Positions 7,354 to 16,463 of a stretch of 48,841 nt of DNA are shown in pieces (position 1 is the stretch's first letter; each line of letters opens with the position of its first letter). The notes below the pieces were generated by a model, which was not told the origin of the DNA, did not search any database, and saw only the letters and a program-made list of their open reading frames with translations. Source of the DNA: a virus. The translations under genes and the position numbers were made by a program. The stretch lies in the IMG/VR virus record IMGVR_UViG_3300005289_000005, positions 1 to 48,841 of that record; one strand, written 5' to 3'.

Positions 7354-7382
7354 TTGACATAAATCCGTTTTGCGCCTAGCGT
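7354..7382 (+). promoter_or_regulatory. Promoter of the rightward recombination operon
   Basis: The -35 TTGACA (7354-7359), a 17-bp spacer and a weak -10 TAGCGT (7377-7382) lead into operator O6. The transcript would start near 7389, leaving a leader of under 30 bases with no clear Shine-Dalgarno sequence before the RecE-like gene. Confidence 0.7.
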
Positions 7383-7397
7383 TGCGATTGTCACAAC
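7381..7397 (+). promoter_or_regulatory. Operator O6, before the RecE-like gene
   Basis: The site GTTGCGATTGTCACAAC is a strong match to the operator consensus and covers the expected transcription start. Extra half-sites (GCAAC, CACAAC) follow in the next 20 bases. Confidence 0.8.
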
Positions 7398-7405
7398 ATT
7401 GCAAC

Positions 7406-8269
7406 ATGGATCACAACATGAAACCCGGCATCTATTTCGACCTTCCCAACGAAACGTATCACGCTGGCCCAGGCGTATCGAAGTCGGGCCTCTGGACGTT
7501 GCAGACGCAATCTCCGGCTCACTACAAGTTCCCGCCTCCCAAGGATGACGACAGCACTCAGGCGCAGGCCGCGAAGAACTTCGGACAGGCGGCGCATACG
7601 GCCGTTCTTGAGCCGCAGCATTTCGAGGCGCGCGTCGTTCGCGGCCCCGCAGACCGGCGCGGGAATAAGTGGAGCGACCTTGCTGAAATGTGCAAGATCG
7701 ACCGCAAGACCCTCTTGACCGCCGACGAATACGATCGCGTCCTCGCCCTTCGCGACGCCGTGCATGCTGATGCGTGGATCAACTCCATCATCACTGGCGG
7801 CAAGCCGATGATCGAGCCGTCCGGCTACTTCATTGACGAAGTCACCGGCGAGCTTTGCCGCGTCCGCCCCGATCTCTATCGCGAAGACCTTTCCGTCATA
7901 GTGGATTTGAAGTCGGCGCTCAGCGCGCATCCTGACGCCTTCGCCCGCGCCGTCGTCAACTATGGCTATCACGCGCAGGAGGCTTTCTATTCGGACGGCT
8001 GGAACCAGATCGGCAAGCCGGTCGAGGCGTTCGTGTTCATCGCATGGGAGAAGAAGTCGCCCTACGCGCACGCGGTTTACGAGCTTCCGCCGTCGATCGT
8101 GGAGGAAGGTCGCGCCATCATGCGCAAGGCTCTCGACCGCTACCACGAGTGCAACAAGGCGAACCTCTGGCCTGGCTATGCCGAAGGCGTGCAGGAGCTT
8201 TCGTTCAAGCGGTGGGCATACCGCGAGACGGACGCGCCGAACGCGCTGGACGAGGAACTTGCGGCGTGA
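7406..8269 (+). CDS. RecE-like exonuclease, PD-(D/E)XK domain
   Basis: The protein has 287 residues. The nuclease core shows RVRPDLYREDLSVIVDLKSA (catalytic D and DLK) and YGYHAQEAFYSDGW, matching the exodeoxyribonuclease VIII-like family found with RecT. It would resect double-strand ends to give 3' tails for the annealase three genes downstream. ATG 7406 is used; ATG 7418 (MKPGIYFDL) is equally possible and neither has a clear ribosome site. First gene of the rightward recombination operon. Confidence 0.88.
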   Translation: MDHNMKPGIYFDLPNETYHAGPGVSKSGLWTLQTQSPAHYKFPPPKDDDSTQAQAAKNFGQAAHTAVLEPQHFEARVVRGPADRRGNKWSDLAEMCKIDRKTLLTADEYDRVLALRDAVHADAWINSIITGGKPMIEPSGYFIDEVTGELCRVRPDLYREDLSVIVDLKSALSAHPDAFARAVVNYGYHAQEAFYSDGWNQIGKPVEAFVFIAWEKKSPYAHAVYELPPSIVEEGRAIMRKALDRYHECNKANLWPGYAEGVQELSFKRWAYRETDAPNALDEELAA

Positions 8270-8448: not shown

Positions 8449-8645
8449 CAAGCCGCGAGGAATTCGCCCTGCAATTCTGGAGCGCCGCCTATTTCGTGCG
8501 GCGCTCTAAGGGCCGAGATCGCGCCACGGCGATCCGTGTTCTGGAAAGCGTCAGCACCAACGCAAAAGGCCCGGTCGCCGATCGAGCCGGCAAACTTCTA
8601 ACGGAGATCAACAATGTCTCAGGCATTACAAACGCAGACGGCTAA
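8445..8645 (+). CDS. Small hypothetical protein, recombination operon
   Basis: The protein has 66 residues, with an ATGA overlap to the gene before and a 32-bp overlap with the recT start. The N-terminus (EEFALQFWSAAYFVRRSKGRD) looks amphipathic helical. No family recognised. Confidence 0.55.
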   Translation: MTSREEFALQFWSAAYFVRRSKGRDRATAIRVLESVSTNAKGPVADRAGKLLTEINNVSGITNADG

Positions 8646-9543
8646 GCCCCCCACCTTGCGCAGCGAGCTTGCCAAGATGCAGGGCGAATTCGCCAAGGCC
8701 CTTCCCGGCCATATTACTGCCGAGCGGTTTGTTCGCACCGCACAGACTGCCGTTGCCTTAACGCGCAACATCGAGAAGGTGCGCAACCCTGCATCGCTCT
8801 TGGCGGCGTGTTCTAAGGCGGCAGCGGACGGCCTCATTCTGGACGGGCGCGAGGCGGCCCTTGTGGTCGATTATCAGGGCGACGTTCAGTATCGGCCGAT
8901 GATGCGAGGCCTGCTTAAGCTCGCCTACAACAGCGGCATGGTGAAAAGCATAGTAGTCGAGCCGGTTCATGACGCCGACCTTTTCGACTATCAGCCGACC
9001 AGATCGGATGAACCGATCATCCACAAGATCGACCTGAAAGCAGATCGCGGCGACTGGTATGCGGTCTATGCCAAGGCCGAATTCAAGGATGGCGGTATCG
9101 TCTTCGAGGTCATGACGAAGGCGGATGTATTCCGCATCCGCGACAGGTCAGACGCCTACAAGACGTTCAAGGCCAACAAGATCAAGTCAACGCCATGGTC
9201 GACCGACGAACTGGAAATGTCGCGCAAGACGGTTTTCCGCCGCCTGTCCAAATACCTGCCGGCCAGCGCCGACCGTGACGATAGGCTGCATCAGGCGGCT
9301 GAGCGGATCGATGAAGATTACACGTTCGACATCGACGCCGCGCCAGCATCGGCCGACGCCGCGCCTGCGGCGACCAAAAAGCGGGGAGCCGGCGCGGCGC
9401 TGTTGAAGAACGTCACTCCGAAAGATGAGGCGCGCGGCCGGCCCGACCGCCAGCCCGATCCCGAGCCGGTCCAGGACAATGACTACGACCCTGAAACTGG
9501 CGAGGTCTACGACGACGAGCAGCAGCCGGAGGACGACATCTAA
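8614..9543 (+). CDS. recT: RecT-family single-strand annealing protein
   Basis: The protein has 309 residues. The RecT core is plain: ELAKMQGEFAKALPGHI, then NPASLLAACSKAAADGLILD and GDVQYRPMMRGLLKLAYNSG. The last 80 residues are an acidic, Pro/Ala-rich tail (ending EVYDDEQQPEDDI), which in such proteins may contact SSB or the exonuclease. It anneals the 3' strands produced by the RecE-like enzyme. ATG 8614 has ACGGAGAT upstream. Confidence 0.95.
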   Translation: MSQALQTQTAKPPTLRSELAKMQGEFAKALPGHITAERFVRTAQTAVALTRNIEKVRNPASLLAACSKAAADGLILDGREAALVVDYQGDVQYRPMMRGLLKLAYNSGMVKSIVVEPVHDADLFDYQPTRSDEPIIHKIDLKADRGDWYAVYAKAEFKDGGIVFEVMTKADVFRIRDRSDAYKTFKANKIKSTPWSTDELEMSRKTVFRRLSKYLPASADRDDRLHQAAERIDEDYTFDIDAAPASADAAPAATKKRGAGAALLKNVTPKDEARGRPDRQPDPEPVQDNDYDPETGEVYDDEQQPEDDI

Positions 9544-9749
9544 TGTCCGACAGCCGCCCGTCATTCGCCCGCGTCGAGATCACCTTGCGCAGCCGTGGCG
9601 ACATCATTCGAGCCGCGACCGAAATTCAGCGCCTTGCCGGAGATCTGGCGTCGGTCGCAGCATCCCCCGACAGCGATGAAGCTGCCCACTTCATCGCCCT
9701 CGATAAGATCCGGGCGACATCGAAGAAACTGAGGAACCCCACAGCATGA
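9543..9749 (+). CDS. Hypothetical protein downstream of recT
   Basis: The protein has 68 residues. The start overlaps the recT stop (TAATG) and the end overlaps the next ATG. One long helix is likely (GDIIRAATEIQRLAGDLASVAA). I do not recognise it. Confidence 0.6.
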   Translation: MSDSRPSFARVEITLRSRGDIIRAATEIQRLAGDLASVAASPDSDEAAHFIALDKIRATSKKLRNPTA

Positions 9750-9988
9750 CGAACGGAATTCACCCGGCTCCGAAGGAGTTCACCCAGGAAGAAATCCGGC
9801 AGGACCATATCCTGCAATTCTTCCACTACGCGCATCTTCCGGAAGCCCTGCGCACCCGCTCGCGTCCGTTCTGCGATCTTGCTCGCGAGATCATCGACAC
9901 GACGCCCCGCAATCCGGAGCGCACCGTTGCGCTTCGCAAGCTCTTGGAAGCGAAGGACGCGAACGTCCGCGCCTTCGTAGCCAAGTAA
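9746..9988 (+). CDS. Acb2/Tad1-hairpin-like small protein (candidate nucleotide sponge)
   Basis: The protein has 80 residues and is helical. The core runs FFHYAHLPEALRTRSRPF, then LAREIIDTTPRNPERTVALR and LLEAKDANVRAF. From memory this resembles the short phage family now linked to the helical hairpin of Acb2 and Tad1, which bind cyclic nucleotides or glycocyclic ADP-ribose and blind CBASS or Thoeris defence. The match is by remembered pattern (Y..LPE.L, ER..AL.KLLEAKDA), not by search. Many family members have no tested function. Early expression beside recT would suit an anti-defence role. Confidence 0.5.
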   Translation: MTNGIHPAPKEFTQEEIRQDHILQFFHYAHLPEALRTRSRPFCDLAREIIDTTPRNPERTVALRKLLEAKDANVRAFVAK

Positions 9989-10017: not shown

Positions 10018-10380
10018 ATGGCAAATCAGACAGGCATTGCACTTTCGATCGTCGCCTTCCTCCCAACCGGCAAGTCTCTGGACGAGCAATTCGCGGCGCT
10101 GACCATCGTCAAGGCCGCGCACGAGAGCGGTGACTATGGCCCGCTCTTGGCTGCCGCCAAGGTCGAGAATGTGAAGACCGAGCAGAAGACCCGGCGCATC
10201 CCTGACGCGCAGTTGCCCGGAACGGAGCCGAACATGCCGCCCGCAGGCGACGACAAGAAGGACGAGCCCGGCGACGACGGACGCTCTCCCGAGCAGCAGT
10301 CGGCCGGCCTCATCGCCGACACCGATCCGGACATTCCGGCCTTCATCAAGAACGACAGCAAGAAATCGAAGGCCGCATAA
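10018..10380 (+). CDS. Hypothetical protein with acidic tail
   Basis: The protein has 120 residues. The first 60 look folded (IALSIVAFLPTGKSLDEQFA, then TIVKAAHESGDYGPLLAAAK). The rest is charged and disordered, ending in KNDSKKSKAA. GGAG precedes the ATG. It is the last gene before an operator and a strong hairpin. No family recognised. Confidence 0.6.
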   Translation: MANQTGIALSIVAFLPTGKSLDEQFAALTIVKAAHESGDYGPLLAAAKVENVKTEQKTRRIPDAQLPGTEPNMPPAGDDKKDEPGDDGRSPEQQSAGLIADTDPDIPAFIKNDSKKSKAA

Positions 10381-11975: not shown

Positions 11976-14900
11976 TCACCCGCCTTTGAATGTAACATAG
12001 ACTGTCCGGGTTACGCCGCGTCTATTCGAGACGTAGAGCAGCCCGTTGTTGTTGACGGAGTAAGTCATCTTCGCGTCAGCTCCGCCAGCATCAGAAAGCG
12101 CGCCAGTCGTCAGATTAGCCTCAGTTCCAGCACTGTCACGGCCTCGAATTCCGCCAGCAGTATCGAAGTCAAACGAGGCATTTTCAACGATGGAGCCGCT
12201 GACAAACTCAACGGAGCCGCGAGCGAATGGCGGCGCGATGGCGACGGCCTTATCGTCGGCGAGCGTGATGCTCCCGCCGTTCATCTTCATCCCCTCTCCG
12301 CCGCCATGGGCTACATTGTAGCCCATGATGCCGGCCTGAATGTAGCCTTCCGCCGTGAGGTGGAGCGTGTCCTCCCAAAACGCAGCCGGGAGCGTTCTGA
12401 TTGGCACGTAGGAGCGCCGTGCCGGGTCTTTCGCCACCACGCCCTGGATGGTGACGTTCATCGCATCGTGACGAACGTCACCGCTATTGGCGGAGCCGGT
12501 AATGCCGAACACCGTCATATGCATAGCGTCGTTCCACCACGACTTTGCCTTGAGGGCCGCGACCATCAGCTCGAAATTCGCGGGCCAGGGGGCAGGTGCG
12601 CCGGCATCGTTCTCAGCCTCCCAGAACAGGAATTCCGTCGCCTTCGTCCCTGCCGGAAGCGTCGCAAGGGCCGCGACCATGTTGGCGTCAATGGCACCGA
12701 CCATATCGATGATCGCAAAGCTTGGCGTCCATTCAAGGATACCAGTTCCAGCGCGCGAGATATTCACGACATAGACATTCGCATCCGGATTTCTCCGCGC
12801 AACCTCGGCCGCGTAGGCCCAACTCGTATTCATACGGGAGGTGTCAGGCACGATCCACGCCGTGCCAACCGATGTTGGCGTGCCGTTCCAGACGCGGAGA
12901 TTGCGCGGCGGAACCCACGTTCCGGAACCGGCGAGTAAATCCTTGCGCTCCATATTCGATTGGCCGCTTGCCGGGATGACGATGTTGCCACCGGCTGCCG
13001 GCCATAGCTTATCGCCAAAGTTGTTCAGGCACACCGTGCCCGTGCCGGCATCACTCAGCGCATAGCCGGCCTCTGAACCCGTCGTGTAGTTCAGGGAGAT
13101 AACGTTCTGCGCGGAGCCGCTGTTGATCTTGATGATGTTGGCGCAGCCTTGGAAAATGTTTCCATTGATGATGCAGCTAGACCCAGTAAGTTCTATGCCG
13201 ATCACACCAAGGGACGCGGCGTCATCAGTGCTCGTCACGTAAAAATGGTTGTCGATGATGTGTGAGCGGATCATGTTGCCCTTTACGAAGCGGAATGGCT
13301 CACCATCCAAGACGTTATCCGCCGACGTTCCAGGGAACAGGAACATCAGGTTGCCCTTGATGAAATGCATCATGTAGGCGGCGGAACCCGTCGTCCCGTA
13401 ATCGACGCAACCCCAATAGCAGGACAGATGGCTATCGATCGTCTTGCAGTTGTTCGCGGCCCCGGCCGTGTCCCTGACCGTGATGCCATAGCCGCAGGCG
13501 GTAATGCCGCCGTGCTCGAACACGATGCCCTCGGACTGGCCCGAACCGAGCACGCCCCAGCACACGTATTGGATCTGCGTCTCTTCAATGAATAGCGCGG
13601 TCGTGTTGTGCGCGCGGATAGCTACAGCCCCCGCCCCGAACTTCGGGTTAGACACCGAATTGTTGTTCATCCACTGCTGCCAGGAGCCATGGATGCGGCA
13701 GTTCGTGACGTGCGTGTTGTCACTATCCTCAAGGTCGAACGACGTAAGCCACCCGCTGTTGCGAACAGCAAGGCTCTCGCTGATCACGACGCCAGAGAAA
13801 TTGAAGAACCCCTCACCCGCCGCATGGACGCCCTCTATCAGGCGCATGGTATGACCGCCACCAGACGACGCCTGCCCTGTATAATCAAACCCGACATAGA
13901 GGTTTTGTGACCATGCCAGCAGGCAGAAGTTCGTCAACTTGTAGCGCACGAAGGAACTGAGCGCCGACTGATTAAGGCGGATGCCGTCACAGCCATCAAA
14001 TACGAACCCGCTGAGACGGGACGTAGTGCCTTCGATGACGAGGCTGGAGCATGTAAAATCGAGCGGCGAGGCTGACCTGTAGATGGCCGTGAGGACAATC
14101 TTTGCATTGGTGGCGTTAACATAGGCCGCCATAGCGAGAAGCGCGGCGGTGCTAAAAACCGTCTGCACGCGACTTGCCCCGAACATTTCGGGTCGAACGG
14201 TTAGCTCGTTCAGTTCATACCACGCGGTCGATCCACCCGCGAGCGCGATGGAAAATTTGCCGCCATGTGATGGCTCTAAGGCAACTAATTTGTGATCTGC
14301 TCCGCCAAAATCTCCCGGAACTGCATATCCCATCGTGCGAATAGCAGCCGGAGCCGCAGCCGGGTGGAAATCCGCAGCGGCATAAGCGCGGCTAGGAAGA
14401 TCGATGCGGTTGTTGTCGACATACGCCTTGACGCTCTGCTGCGATGGGGCGTGCGATGCGCTGTTCGTCGTGAGCGCATCTTCATCAAGGAAGCCGGCCG
14501 TAGCTGCCGCCCCAAGCCCAAGCGTGGCCCGCCCGGCAGACTGAGAGGTATCGCCCAGCAGCGCCAAGCCGGTTGCTCCTGGCGTCACACCGAACAAAGA
14601 CGACGCGAGAGCAGTCCCGTTCAGGTAGTAGCCAGTCGCATTGAGCGTCCCGCTACCCTTGGCTGCGCCGGTAGCGCCGAGAAGGTAAGCGCCGTTCCCG
14701 ACGAAAAGCTGATTTAAGGTAACGCCCGCCACCGTTCCGGCTATCGCATATTCACCCGTTTCCGCGCCTGCCGTCGCGTTTAGAACGATAGCTTGCGTGC
14801 GGGCAAAGGTCATTTCGACGCCCGAACTGTTGTTCGCGCGGAAGCGATCCCAACTGATGACATCGTTCGGAGCCGTTGTCGCCTTGATCAGCGCGCGCTC

Positions 14901-16463
14901 GACGCGGGGGCCGATGGTGGCCGCATTGTTCGTGACCTGGTGGCGCTGGACGATCGCCCCGTTGGCTGTGGAATTGAAGTTTTGCGTATTCACGAACGCA
15001 TTTGCAGCGCTCAGGATGGCCGCGTCCGACAACTTGGTGCGCTCAGTATCGGTCATGATCTTTTTTGTCGAAGTTTCGATCATGTTCGACATCAGGAACG
15101 CACTGCCGCCGACACCGGTCGGATCATACATCGAGGCAACCATGTCGCCGGAACCGGAACCGGAAGCCCCGTCACTACCACGAGGGATGGTGATGTTTAG
15201 AATGGCTGCAGTAGATGTGCCGACATTGCTGACAATGACGGATGTGCCAGCCGCGCCGGTCGTAACGGTTCCAATCGTCAACGTCGCCGCCGCGCCATTC
15301 CCTCCCGCCGAACCACGGACATCCAGGGCGTCAAATAGATTGTCCACATATCCAGCAGCGCCGATGTAGACGTTTATCTCCGGCTTAGTTCCCGTCCCGT
15401 CCGTCCAGTCCGTAATTTTGAGCACTCGCCGATCGCCGTCGCTTTCGAGCGCGAGAACAGGAGCCCAACTCAAGCCCGCATCCCCGATGCTGACCATCAA
15501 CTCCCAGTAATCGTTTGATGTCGTCGGCAGCGTCGGCGGCGCTTGACCTATGGAGGGCTGGAGCGCTTTCCATGCCGACCCCTCATGCTGGACCGCGTCG
15601 CTAATTACGTAATTGGTGAGAGCGCTATACTCCCCCTTCCAATCGATCTTTGCGACAATCGCCGCCGATGCCGAAGCCGCCGCCGCAGCAGCCGAGCCCG
15701 ACGCGCCCGTCGCGGAAACCGCCGCCGCGTCGGCACTCTCGTCGGCCGCAGTCGCGGACAGCGCCGCCGCAGCAGCCGAGCCCGATGCGCCCGTCGCGGA
15801 AACCGCCGCCGCGCTCGCCGATGCGGCCGTGGCGGCAGCCACGGCCGGGGCTGCAACAATCTCATCCGAAATGCCGGCGACGGTTATTACGTCGGGAGAA
15901 ATCCCCGAAACGGTCGTAACTTCGTCCGATATGGCTGAGACGACAGCAACGTCAGCGGCGATACCGGCGACAACCGTAACGTCGGCTGAGATATTGGCGA
16001 CAGTATCGATTTCGTCCGCGCTTGCGCTAAGGCGAACGACATCCTCAATCAGATCCGCTAGCCCGGAGGCATCCGCAGACGCCGGCAGTTTCACAGCCCT
16101 GTCGACTTGCTCTCGCAAATAGCGATCCCGCATCGCAGCCAGGTCGAATGCGCGCTCGACACTTTCCGCAAAGTATGCGCCCTGATTTTCAAGATCGAGC
16201 GTTTGAGTGAACGGAACGGTGGGGATCAGCGTCACGGTCTGCCCATCAGCAGGAGCCACCGCAAGGACAACCGTTCCGGCATCTTCGCCAACACCCGTAA
16301 CCGTATAGTCGGCCGCGAGTGTCAAGGTTGTCTCTATCCCGCCCTCGGCGAGGATGACGACAATATGCGTCTCTTCAAAAATGCGAAAACCATAGTCGAA
16401 TTCGACCGTGACGCCGTTGCCGATGTAAGGCCCCGACTTGTTGACTTCGCTGGAAATCGTCAT
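11976..16463 (-). CDS. Tail fibre with SGNH esterase domain
   Basis: The protein has 1,495 residues. Residues 1-130 resemble the T7-type fibre anchor (GNGVTVEFDYGFRIFEE; VERAFDLAAMRDRYLREQVD). Then come ten-residue repeats (xDVxxVxxIx), an Ala/Ser-rich shaft, a W-GEY carbohydrate-module-like segment near 280, and a probable beta-helix at about 690-1130. An SGNH hydrolase follows at about 1155-1380, with GQSN (nucleophile Ser near 1166) and DTLH. It would adsorb to host polysaccharide and strip acetyl or similar esters. It is the distal virion gene of the late operon. Confidence 0.88.
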   Translation of the reverse strand: MTISSEVNKSGPYIGNGVTVEFDYGFRIFEETHIVVILAEGGIETTLTLAADYTVTGVGEDAGTVVLAVAPADGQTVTLIPTVPFTQTLDLENQGAYFAESVERAFDLAAMRDRYLREQVDRAVKLPASADASGLADLIEDVVRLSASADEIDTVANISADVTVVAGIAADVAVVSAISDEVTTVSGISPDVITVAGISDEIVAAPAVAAATAASASAAAVSATGASGSAAAAALSATAADESADAAAVSATGASGSAAAAAASASAAIVAKIDWKGEYSALTNYVISDAVQHEGSAWKALQPSIGQAPPTLPTTSNDYWELMVSIGDAGLSWAPVLALESDGDRRVLKITDWTDGTGTKPEINVYIGAAGYVDNLFDALDVRGSAGGNGAAATLTIGTVTTGAAGTSVIVSNVGTSTAAILNITIPRGSDGASGSGSGDMVASMYDPTGVGGSAFLMSNMIETSTKKIMTDTERTKLSDAAILSAANAFVNTQNFNSTANGAIVQRHQVTNNAATIGPRVERALIKATTAPNDVISWDRFRANNSSGVEMTFARTQAIVLNATAGAETGEYAIAGTVAGVTLNQLFVGNGAYLLGATGAAKGSGTLNATGYYLNGTALASSLFGVTPGATGLALLGDTSQSAGRATLGLGAAATAGFLDEDALTTNSASHAPSQQSVKAYVDNNRIDLPSRAYAAADFHPAAAPAAIRTMGYAVPGDFGGADHKLVALEPSHGGKFSIALAGGSTAWYELNELTVRPEMFGASRVQTVFSTAALLAMAAYVNATNAKIVLTAIYRSASPLDFTCSSLVIEGTTSRLSGFVFDGCDGIRLNQSALSSFVRYKLTNFCLLAWSQNLYVGFDYTGQASSGGGHTMRLIEGVHAAGEGFFNFSGVVISESLAVRNSGWLTSFDLEDSDNTHVTNCRIHGSWQQWMNNNSVSNPKFGAGAVAIRAHNTTALFIEETQIQYVCWGVLGSGQSEGIVFEHGGITACGYGITVRDTAGAANNCKTIDSHLSCYWGCVDYGTTGSAAYMMHFIKGNLMFLFPGTSADNVLDGEPFRFVKGNMIRSHIIDNHFYVTSTDDAASLGVIGIELTGSSCIINGNIFQGCANIIKINSGSAQNVISLNYTTGSEAGYALSDAGTGTVCLNNFGDKLWPAAGGNIVIPASGQSNMERKDLLAGSGTWVPPRNLRVWNGTPTSVGTAWIVPDTSRMNTSWAYAAEVARRNPDANVYVVNISRAGTGILEWTPSFAIIDMVGAIDANMVAALATLPAGTKATEFLFWEAENDAGAPAPWPANFELMVAALKAKSWWNDAMHMTVFGITGSANSGDVRHDAMNVTIQGVVAKDPARRSYVPIRTLPAAFWEDTLHLTAEGYIQAGIMGYNVAHGGGEGMKMNGGSITLADDKAVAIAPPFARGSVEFVSGSIVENASFDFDTAGGIRGRDSAGTEANLTTGALSDAGGADAKMTYSVNNNGLLYVSNRRGVTRTVYVTFKGG
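15679..15813 (-). repeat. Two 51-bp direct repeats in the fibre shaft
   Basis: Bases 15679-15729 and 15763-15813 are identical but for one transition (C/T). They encode Ala/Ser/Gly-rich shaft segments 28 residues apart. Such repeats allow in-frame lengthening or shortening of the fibre by recombination. Confidence 0.85.
15870..16020 (-). repeat. Tandem ten-residue repeats in the fibre
   Basis: About five consecutive 30-bp units encode the pattern xDVxxVxxI(S/A), for example ADVAVVSAIS and PDVITVAGIS. DNA identity between units is modest, so the repeat is kept at protein level, probably as a trimeric stalk. Confidence 0.7.

Follow-up and report, generated by a model that had tools for sequence, protein, structure and literature searches.

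A widespread family of phage accessory proteins with probable remote homology to the Acb2/Tad1 hairpins as candidate nucleotide-signal sponges

The window analysed here is an entire virus record of 48,841 bases and carries a gene for an 80-residue protein, P0001, with a predicted α-hairpin fold. P0001 belongs to a large phage family which is most probably a remote homologue of the Acb2/Tad1 hairpins and which is carried as dispensable accessory cargo. By analogy with these relatives we propose that the P0001 clade sequesters a messenger and so acts as a nucleotide-signal sponge, a reading to which we give a probability of about 0.5.

The open reading frame was confirmed on the plus strand with exactly the boundaries given in the original prediction (Table 1). 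Its product, MTNGIHPAPKEFTQEEIRQDHILQFFHYAHLPEALRTRSRPFCDLAREIIDTTPRNPERTVALRKLLEAKDANVRAFVAK, starts at an ATG codon behind a good ribosome-binding site (Table 1), and this start shares the sequence ATGA with the stop of the preceding open reading frame, which suggests that both are translationally coupled. Codon differences between P0001 and its nearest relatives are mostly synonymous, with 31 synonymous and 3 non-synonymous exchanges compared with L002 and ratios of 28:7 and 24:5 compared with L004 and L028. P0001 is therefore encoded by a protein-coding gene under purifying selection. Because this synonymous bias is accompanied by relatives in 315 phage records, the open reading frame is a true gene and did not arise by chance.

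Table 1. Features of the window in and around the P0001 locus
Feature	Position	Strand	Remarks
Exonuclease VIII-like gene	7370..8269	+	DUF3799, phrog_412; recT partner
recT-like ssDNA-annealing gene	8614..9543	+	PF03837, phrog_148
Conserved 68-aa ORF of unknown function	9543..9749	+	Left border of variable slot
Shine-Dalgarno-like GAGGAA	9731..9736	+	9 nt 5′ of the P0001 ATG; read from sequence
80-aa α-hairpin protein P0001	9746..9988	+	phrog_1761 / phrog_5120; probable distant relative of Acb2/Tad1 hairpins
Predicted long helix 1 (codons 33-52)	9842..9901	+	AlphaFold2 model and alignment; near-invariant S39, F42, A46
Predicted long helix 2 (codons 57-78)	9914..9979	+	AlphaFold2 model and alignment
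Conserved 'MANQTGIA' 120-aa ORF of unknown function	10018..10380	+	Right border of variable slot
1495-aa tail-fibre-like protein	11976..16463	-	GQSNMER stretch resembles an SGNH/sialate-esterase-type module

In PHROGs, P0001 matched phrog_1761 (8.6e-26) and phrog_5120 (1e-15). Both represent its own family and neither has a functional label; such a label was absent from every family match listed. In addition to the 315 phage records, the family comprises at least 559 confirmed matches on viral contigs, 95 matches in the genomes of bacteria, with prophages from many phyla, and 24 records in a plasmid collection. Hosts of the phages include Vibrio, Acinetobacter, Erwinia, Gordonia, Mycobacterium and Ruegeria. 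An alignment of 84 members (A2) yielded the consensus ILQFFxYxHLPxxLQxVSxPFxxLAxxIVxxLPRNPERTVALRKLLEAKDAAVRA, in which F26, H30, L31, L63, L66, E68, K70 and R75 are invariant and S39, E58, R64, K65, L67, D71 and V74 are conserved in 99% of the members. Helix 2 thus holds the invariant or near-invariant residues E58, L63, R64, K65, L66, L67, E68, K70, D71, V74 and R75. Conservation of the ALRKLLE(A/S)K stretch is partly a matter of ascertainment, since the collection scans were baited with conserved peptides. Most of the conserved set was also present in phage members found by tblastn, among which a single Sulfitobacter phage protein was more divergent. Counter-defence proteins usually evolve fast, and conservation as strict as this among phages of different host phyla speaks against the sponge reading. 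A literature search with the family motif string retrieved no paper.

Several family members deviate from the compact form. Five of them (L150, L154, L145, L076 and L077) have an insertion of 10–20 residues in front of the helix turn, as in NPESGTITFGLI. In the Erwinia phage pEa_SNUABM_2 (L272:3758-4186) an N-terminal P-loop-like stretch (RIIGPVGVGKSAV...) is fused to the hairpin, and the best match of P0001 in BFVD is likewise a fusion, which is named Anti-TRAP (Ochrobactrum phage OH). An N-terminal GKFYxxRxG... module was seen in L254:4124-4519 and L255:4097-4486 and another module in L081 and L091, the second type observed being (Y/E)DGYxSW.... The occurrence of two N-terminal module types suggests a modular cargo family.

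The original prediction had tentatively assigned the protein to the Acb2/Tad1 hairpin family and had relied on an ER..AL.KLLEAKDA pattern. The pattern is present in P0001 as PRNPERTVALRKLLEAKDANVRA, but KLLEAKDA is not the form found in Acb2/Tad1 proteins (KLEEAMFWANAAIAR). The profile search of the single protein did not bear out the assignment either: PF24729 (Acb2_Tad1_hairpin), which matches T4 Vs.4/Acb2 at 7e-20, gave no match to P0001 at E ≤ 1 nor at E ≤ 10, and searches of Pfam, NCBIfam and PDB sequences with P0001 alone returned no match at all. Among the 84 aligned members, 9 touched PF24729, more than any other model, yet all remained below threshold; the top score (L103, E 3e-4) was 21.4 bits compared with a curated cut-off of 27 bits, and the E-values were no better than that of an evidently spurious match to TetR_C_11. 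Some members also gave sub-threshold Pfam/NCBIfam matches to TetR_C_11, Occludin_ELL and Dps, which we attribute to helical composition and dismiss as noise. Membership of P0001 in PF24729 as currently defined is thus not supported.

What stands of the assignment is a relationship at the level of the superfamily. Using hhalign, A2 was compared with three differently composed sets of Acb2/Tad1 sequences, giving probabilities of 85.5%, 92.2–92.8% and 80.3% with P values from 1e-5 to 4e-7 (4e-7 to 6e-7 for the set at 92–93%). None of 300 column permutations exceeded 9.5% and reversed alignments reached at most 0.6%. Against a profile of the actinophage-type Acb2/Tad1 proteins, 25 clusters of real or shadow open reading frames from the same loci, of uneven depth (154 vs 6 members), ranked in the order hairpins (100%), P0001 family (80%) and PaMx/T4-type Acb2 (25%), with all remaining clusters at or below 1.7%. 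Reciprocal HMM searches were run among 30,819 six-frame open reading frames, a pool enriched in both families although each makes up less than 1% of it. The first 25 matches of the P0001-family HMM outside its own family were all Acb2/Tad1 hairpins, and the next-best matches of the Acb2/Tad1 HMMs nearly all belonged to the P0001 family. In both families an identical LA-x(6)-(L/V)-P arrangement leads up to the turn, and helix 2 opens with an ER/EK-(S/T) motif. A hairpin-like open reading frame (KLEELFFWIRAGMARG) directly 5′ of a family member (L142:5714-5980) was matched weakly by the Acb2/Tad1 HMM at an E-value of 0.006 and by no Pfam model; this is a single case.

The AlphaFold2 monomer model of P0001 (pLDDT 91.5) is all-helical, as the original prediction had expected, with helices at residues 14–19, 21–26, 33–52 and 57–78. 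The model of an actinophage-type hairpin has helices at residues 3–9, 18–41 and 46–68, and helix order and a 4-residue turn are common to both. The model of P0001 has the plan of Acb2, in which short N-terminal helices are followed by two long antiparallel helices. Using the P0001 model, Foldseek retrieved from BFVD its own relatives first and then proteins named Acb2/Tad1, which account for 10 of the 50 best matches. In the reverse search the actinophage-type model retrieved named Acb2/Tad1 proteins first, followed by P0001-family members (A0A6G6XYP8, A0A4Y6EL21, A0A384ZW89, A0A023NHU2 and A0A898KB81) at probabilities of 0.75–0.99. Neither Acb2 nor Tad1 occurred among the 50 PDB matches listed for the P0001 model, all of which had E > 2. 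Taken together, hhalign with its controls and the reciprocal HMM and fold rankings support a shared superfamily well and make remote homology to the Acb2/Tad1 hairpin highly probable. The P0001 family very probably forms a large and divergent sister clade of these hairpins that had not been described before.

The compact PF24729 type of actinophages and Streptomyces prophages (e.g. L211, Streptomyces phage KimJongPhill) resembles P0001 in its short N-terminal helix, an aromatic-x-H loop, two long helices, a 4-residue turn containing P and an (R/P)E(K/R)(S/T)xA motif opening helix 2; in both cases the genes are phage accessory genes for proteins of about 70–80 aa. Unlike this type, the P0001 family is without WANAAIAR and has R-K-L-L-E-(A/S)-K-D-A-x-V-R-A, carries Ser where 'VR' has R/K, and lies in sequence beyond detection by PF24729. 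Acb2 itself, a verified anti-CBASS sponge (T4 Vs.4, PDB 7uq2; Pseudomonas phage p26, PDB 8h2j/8ixz), has the helix order of P0001 and may also share with it an aromatic residue before helix 1 (Y28 of P0001, tentatively placed at Acb2 Y11), whereas P0001 has S39 in place of K26, shorter helices and a shorter turn, and shows no direct sequence similarity. The anti-Thoeris sponge Tad1 (PDB 7uav/8kbe) ends in an α-hairpin like that of P0001, but its N-terminal β-sheet domain is absent from P0001, whose model contains no strands. A few family members (L254/L255) carry an added N-terminal module, and the N-terminal modules of some relatives look unrelated. We considered whether the L254/L255 fusions of a GKFY module and a hairpin are Tad1-like; their N-terminal rows were misaligned, however, and in L263 a stretch of this kind stands in front of a different helical domain. 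Shared N-terminal modules were not seen in Acb2/Tad1 loci. The PDB chain closest in style to P0001 is 9ptq_A, a solved, compact protein of 76 aa named 'Acb2 homolog 43'. A literature search for a paper describing it found none, and the text 'Acb2 homolog' retrieved one review and nothing else.

In Acb2, Y11 and K26 are residues of the nucleotide pocket, with K26 contacting phosphate. In the profile alignment, the K26 position corresponds to S39, which is Ser in 99% of the P0001 family, and the Y11 position to Y28 (Y/F/W in 93%), a placement which depends on a gap. The helix 2 signature E-A-x-x-W-A/N-x-A-I/L-A-R of Acb2/Tad1 was not found in the family, which has LLEAKDAAVRA instead; MFWANAAIAR is replaced by KDAAVRA with the invariant residues K70, D71 and R75. 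These alignments are most naturally explained by a pocket that was re-built on a homologous scaffold. Because K26 is exchanged for Ser and helix 2 has an invariant charged set of its own (R64, K65, E68, K70, D71 and R75), the ligand of the P0001 family may differ from that of Acb2.

The gene was described as lying next to recT. The recT-like gene is indeed nearby, but the 68-aa open reading frame intervenes. In relatives of the recT locus of the window, the slot between this frame and the MANQTG open reading frame is variable: it holds a fused family member in L254 and L255 and is empty in L256. In L257 it is occupied by a different small protein of phrog_13898 (L257:4117-4461), a group without assigned function, and similar proteins occur in L258 and L261-L263; these may be alternative counter-defence cargo in sister phages. 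In the Gordonia phages Pimento and Brylie the flanks on either side agree to about 98%, and Pimento has exactly one additional gene, which lies between a conserved open reading frame and the head-to-tail adaptor and encodes a P0001-family member. The same single-gene presence/absence was found for DumpsterDude and Malibo (flanks 94% and 89%). In other phages the family gene is located among nucleotide-metabolism genes, near replication genes, in structural modules or, at a late position, next to a repressor-like gene. Known anti-defence genes were not seen beside family members in the phage neighbourhoods read. The gene behaves as optional phage accessory ('moron') cargo, and a dispensable single gene without fixed position is better explained by counter-defence than by a core function.

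A core role in recombination or virion assembly is very improbable for P0001. Although the gene is found near recT here and inside structural modules of Acinetobacter, Gordonia and Vibrio phages, its position varies between phages, the slot behind recT can be empty or otherwise filled, and near-identical viable phages of the same host genus exist with it (Pimento/DelRio) and without it (Brylie/Malibo). A structural or virion role of the family was rejected on this presence/absence pattern. We also consider it unlikely that the likeness to Acb2/Tad1 is convergent, arising from amphipathic helix periodicity and a P..(R/P)E turn with no homology. The hhalign score was reproduced neither by permuted or reversed alignments nor by real unrelated phage families, HMM and fold searches reciprocally put the other family first, and the two families agree in their distance to the turn and in the way helix 2 opens. 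Convergence would be favoured by the fact that helical hairpins are common, by the failure of single-sequence profile searches with P0001 and by the weak matches of some members to unrelated helical models.

It is possible, though it is not the reading we prefer, that the clade belongs to the same superfamily and has another job; its target would be a conserved protein of the host or a different small molecule, and no immune messenger would be sequestered. H30, E58, R64, K65, E68, K70, D71 and R75 are near-absolute and look like a constrained interaction site, and this charged surface is conserved across phages of Alphaproteobacteria, Actinobacteria, Planctomycetes and Cyanobacteria. Loss of the Acb2 K26, the missing W/N signature in helix 2 and the varied small modules fused N-terminally point in the same direction. 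On the other hand, a phosphate-binding pocket would equally show an invariant basic set, and the conservation is in part due to the peptide-baited scans, even if the members found by tblastn share most of it.

If P0001 is a nucleotide-signal sponge, its helical hairpins would, by homology, assemble into a small oligomer that may hold a nucleotide-derived defence messenger between its subunits during infection. Sequestration of the messenger would leave the host effector inactive. The Acb2 hexamer binds three CDNs at dimer interfaces and two CTNs in the central channel, and Tad1 ligands are gcADPR, CDNs and CTNs (PMC12043709). We infer that P0001 may have anti-CBASS or anti-Thoeris activity and may be expressed early, both of which the original prediction had put forward. 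A more specific proposal, which we regard as rather doubtful, is that the FFxYxHLP...PERTVALRKLLEAKDA family forms a new, phylum-spanning class of sponges on the Acb2/Tad1 hairpin, with an invariant basic pocket of its own for a messenger poorly bound by Acb2 and Tad1.

The P0001 family is present in hundreds of sequenced phages, and the near-identical pair Pimento/Brylie offers a natural comparison with and without the gene. If the family does act as a sponge, it would greatly enlarge the Acb2/Tad1 superfamily and predict counter-defence for phages not recognised to have any. The altered pocket of the family could in that case indicate a messenger outside the range of the known sponges.
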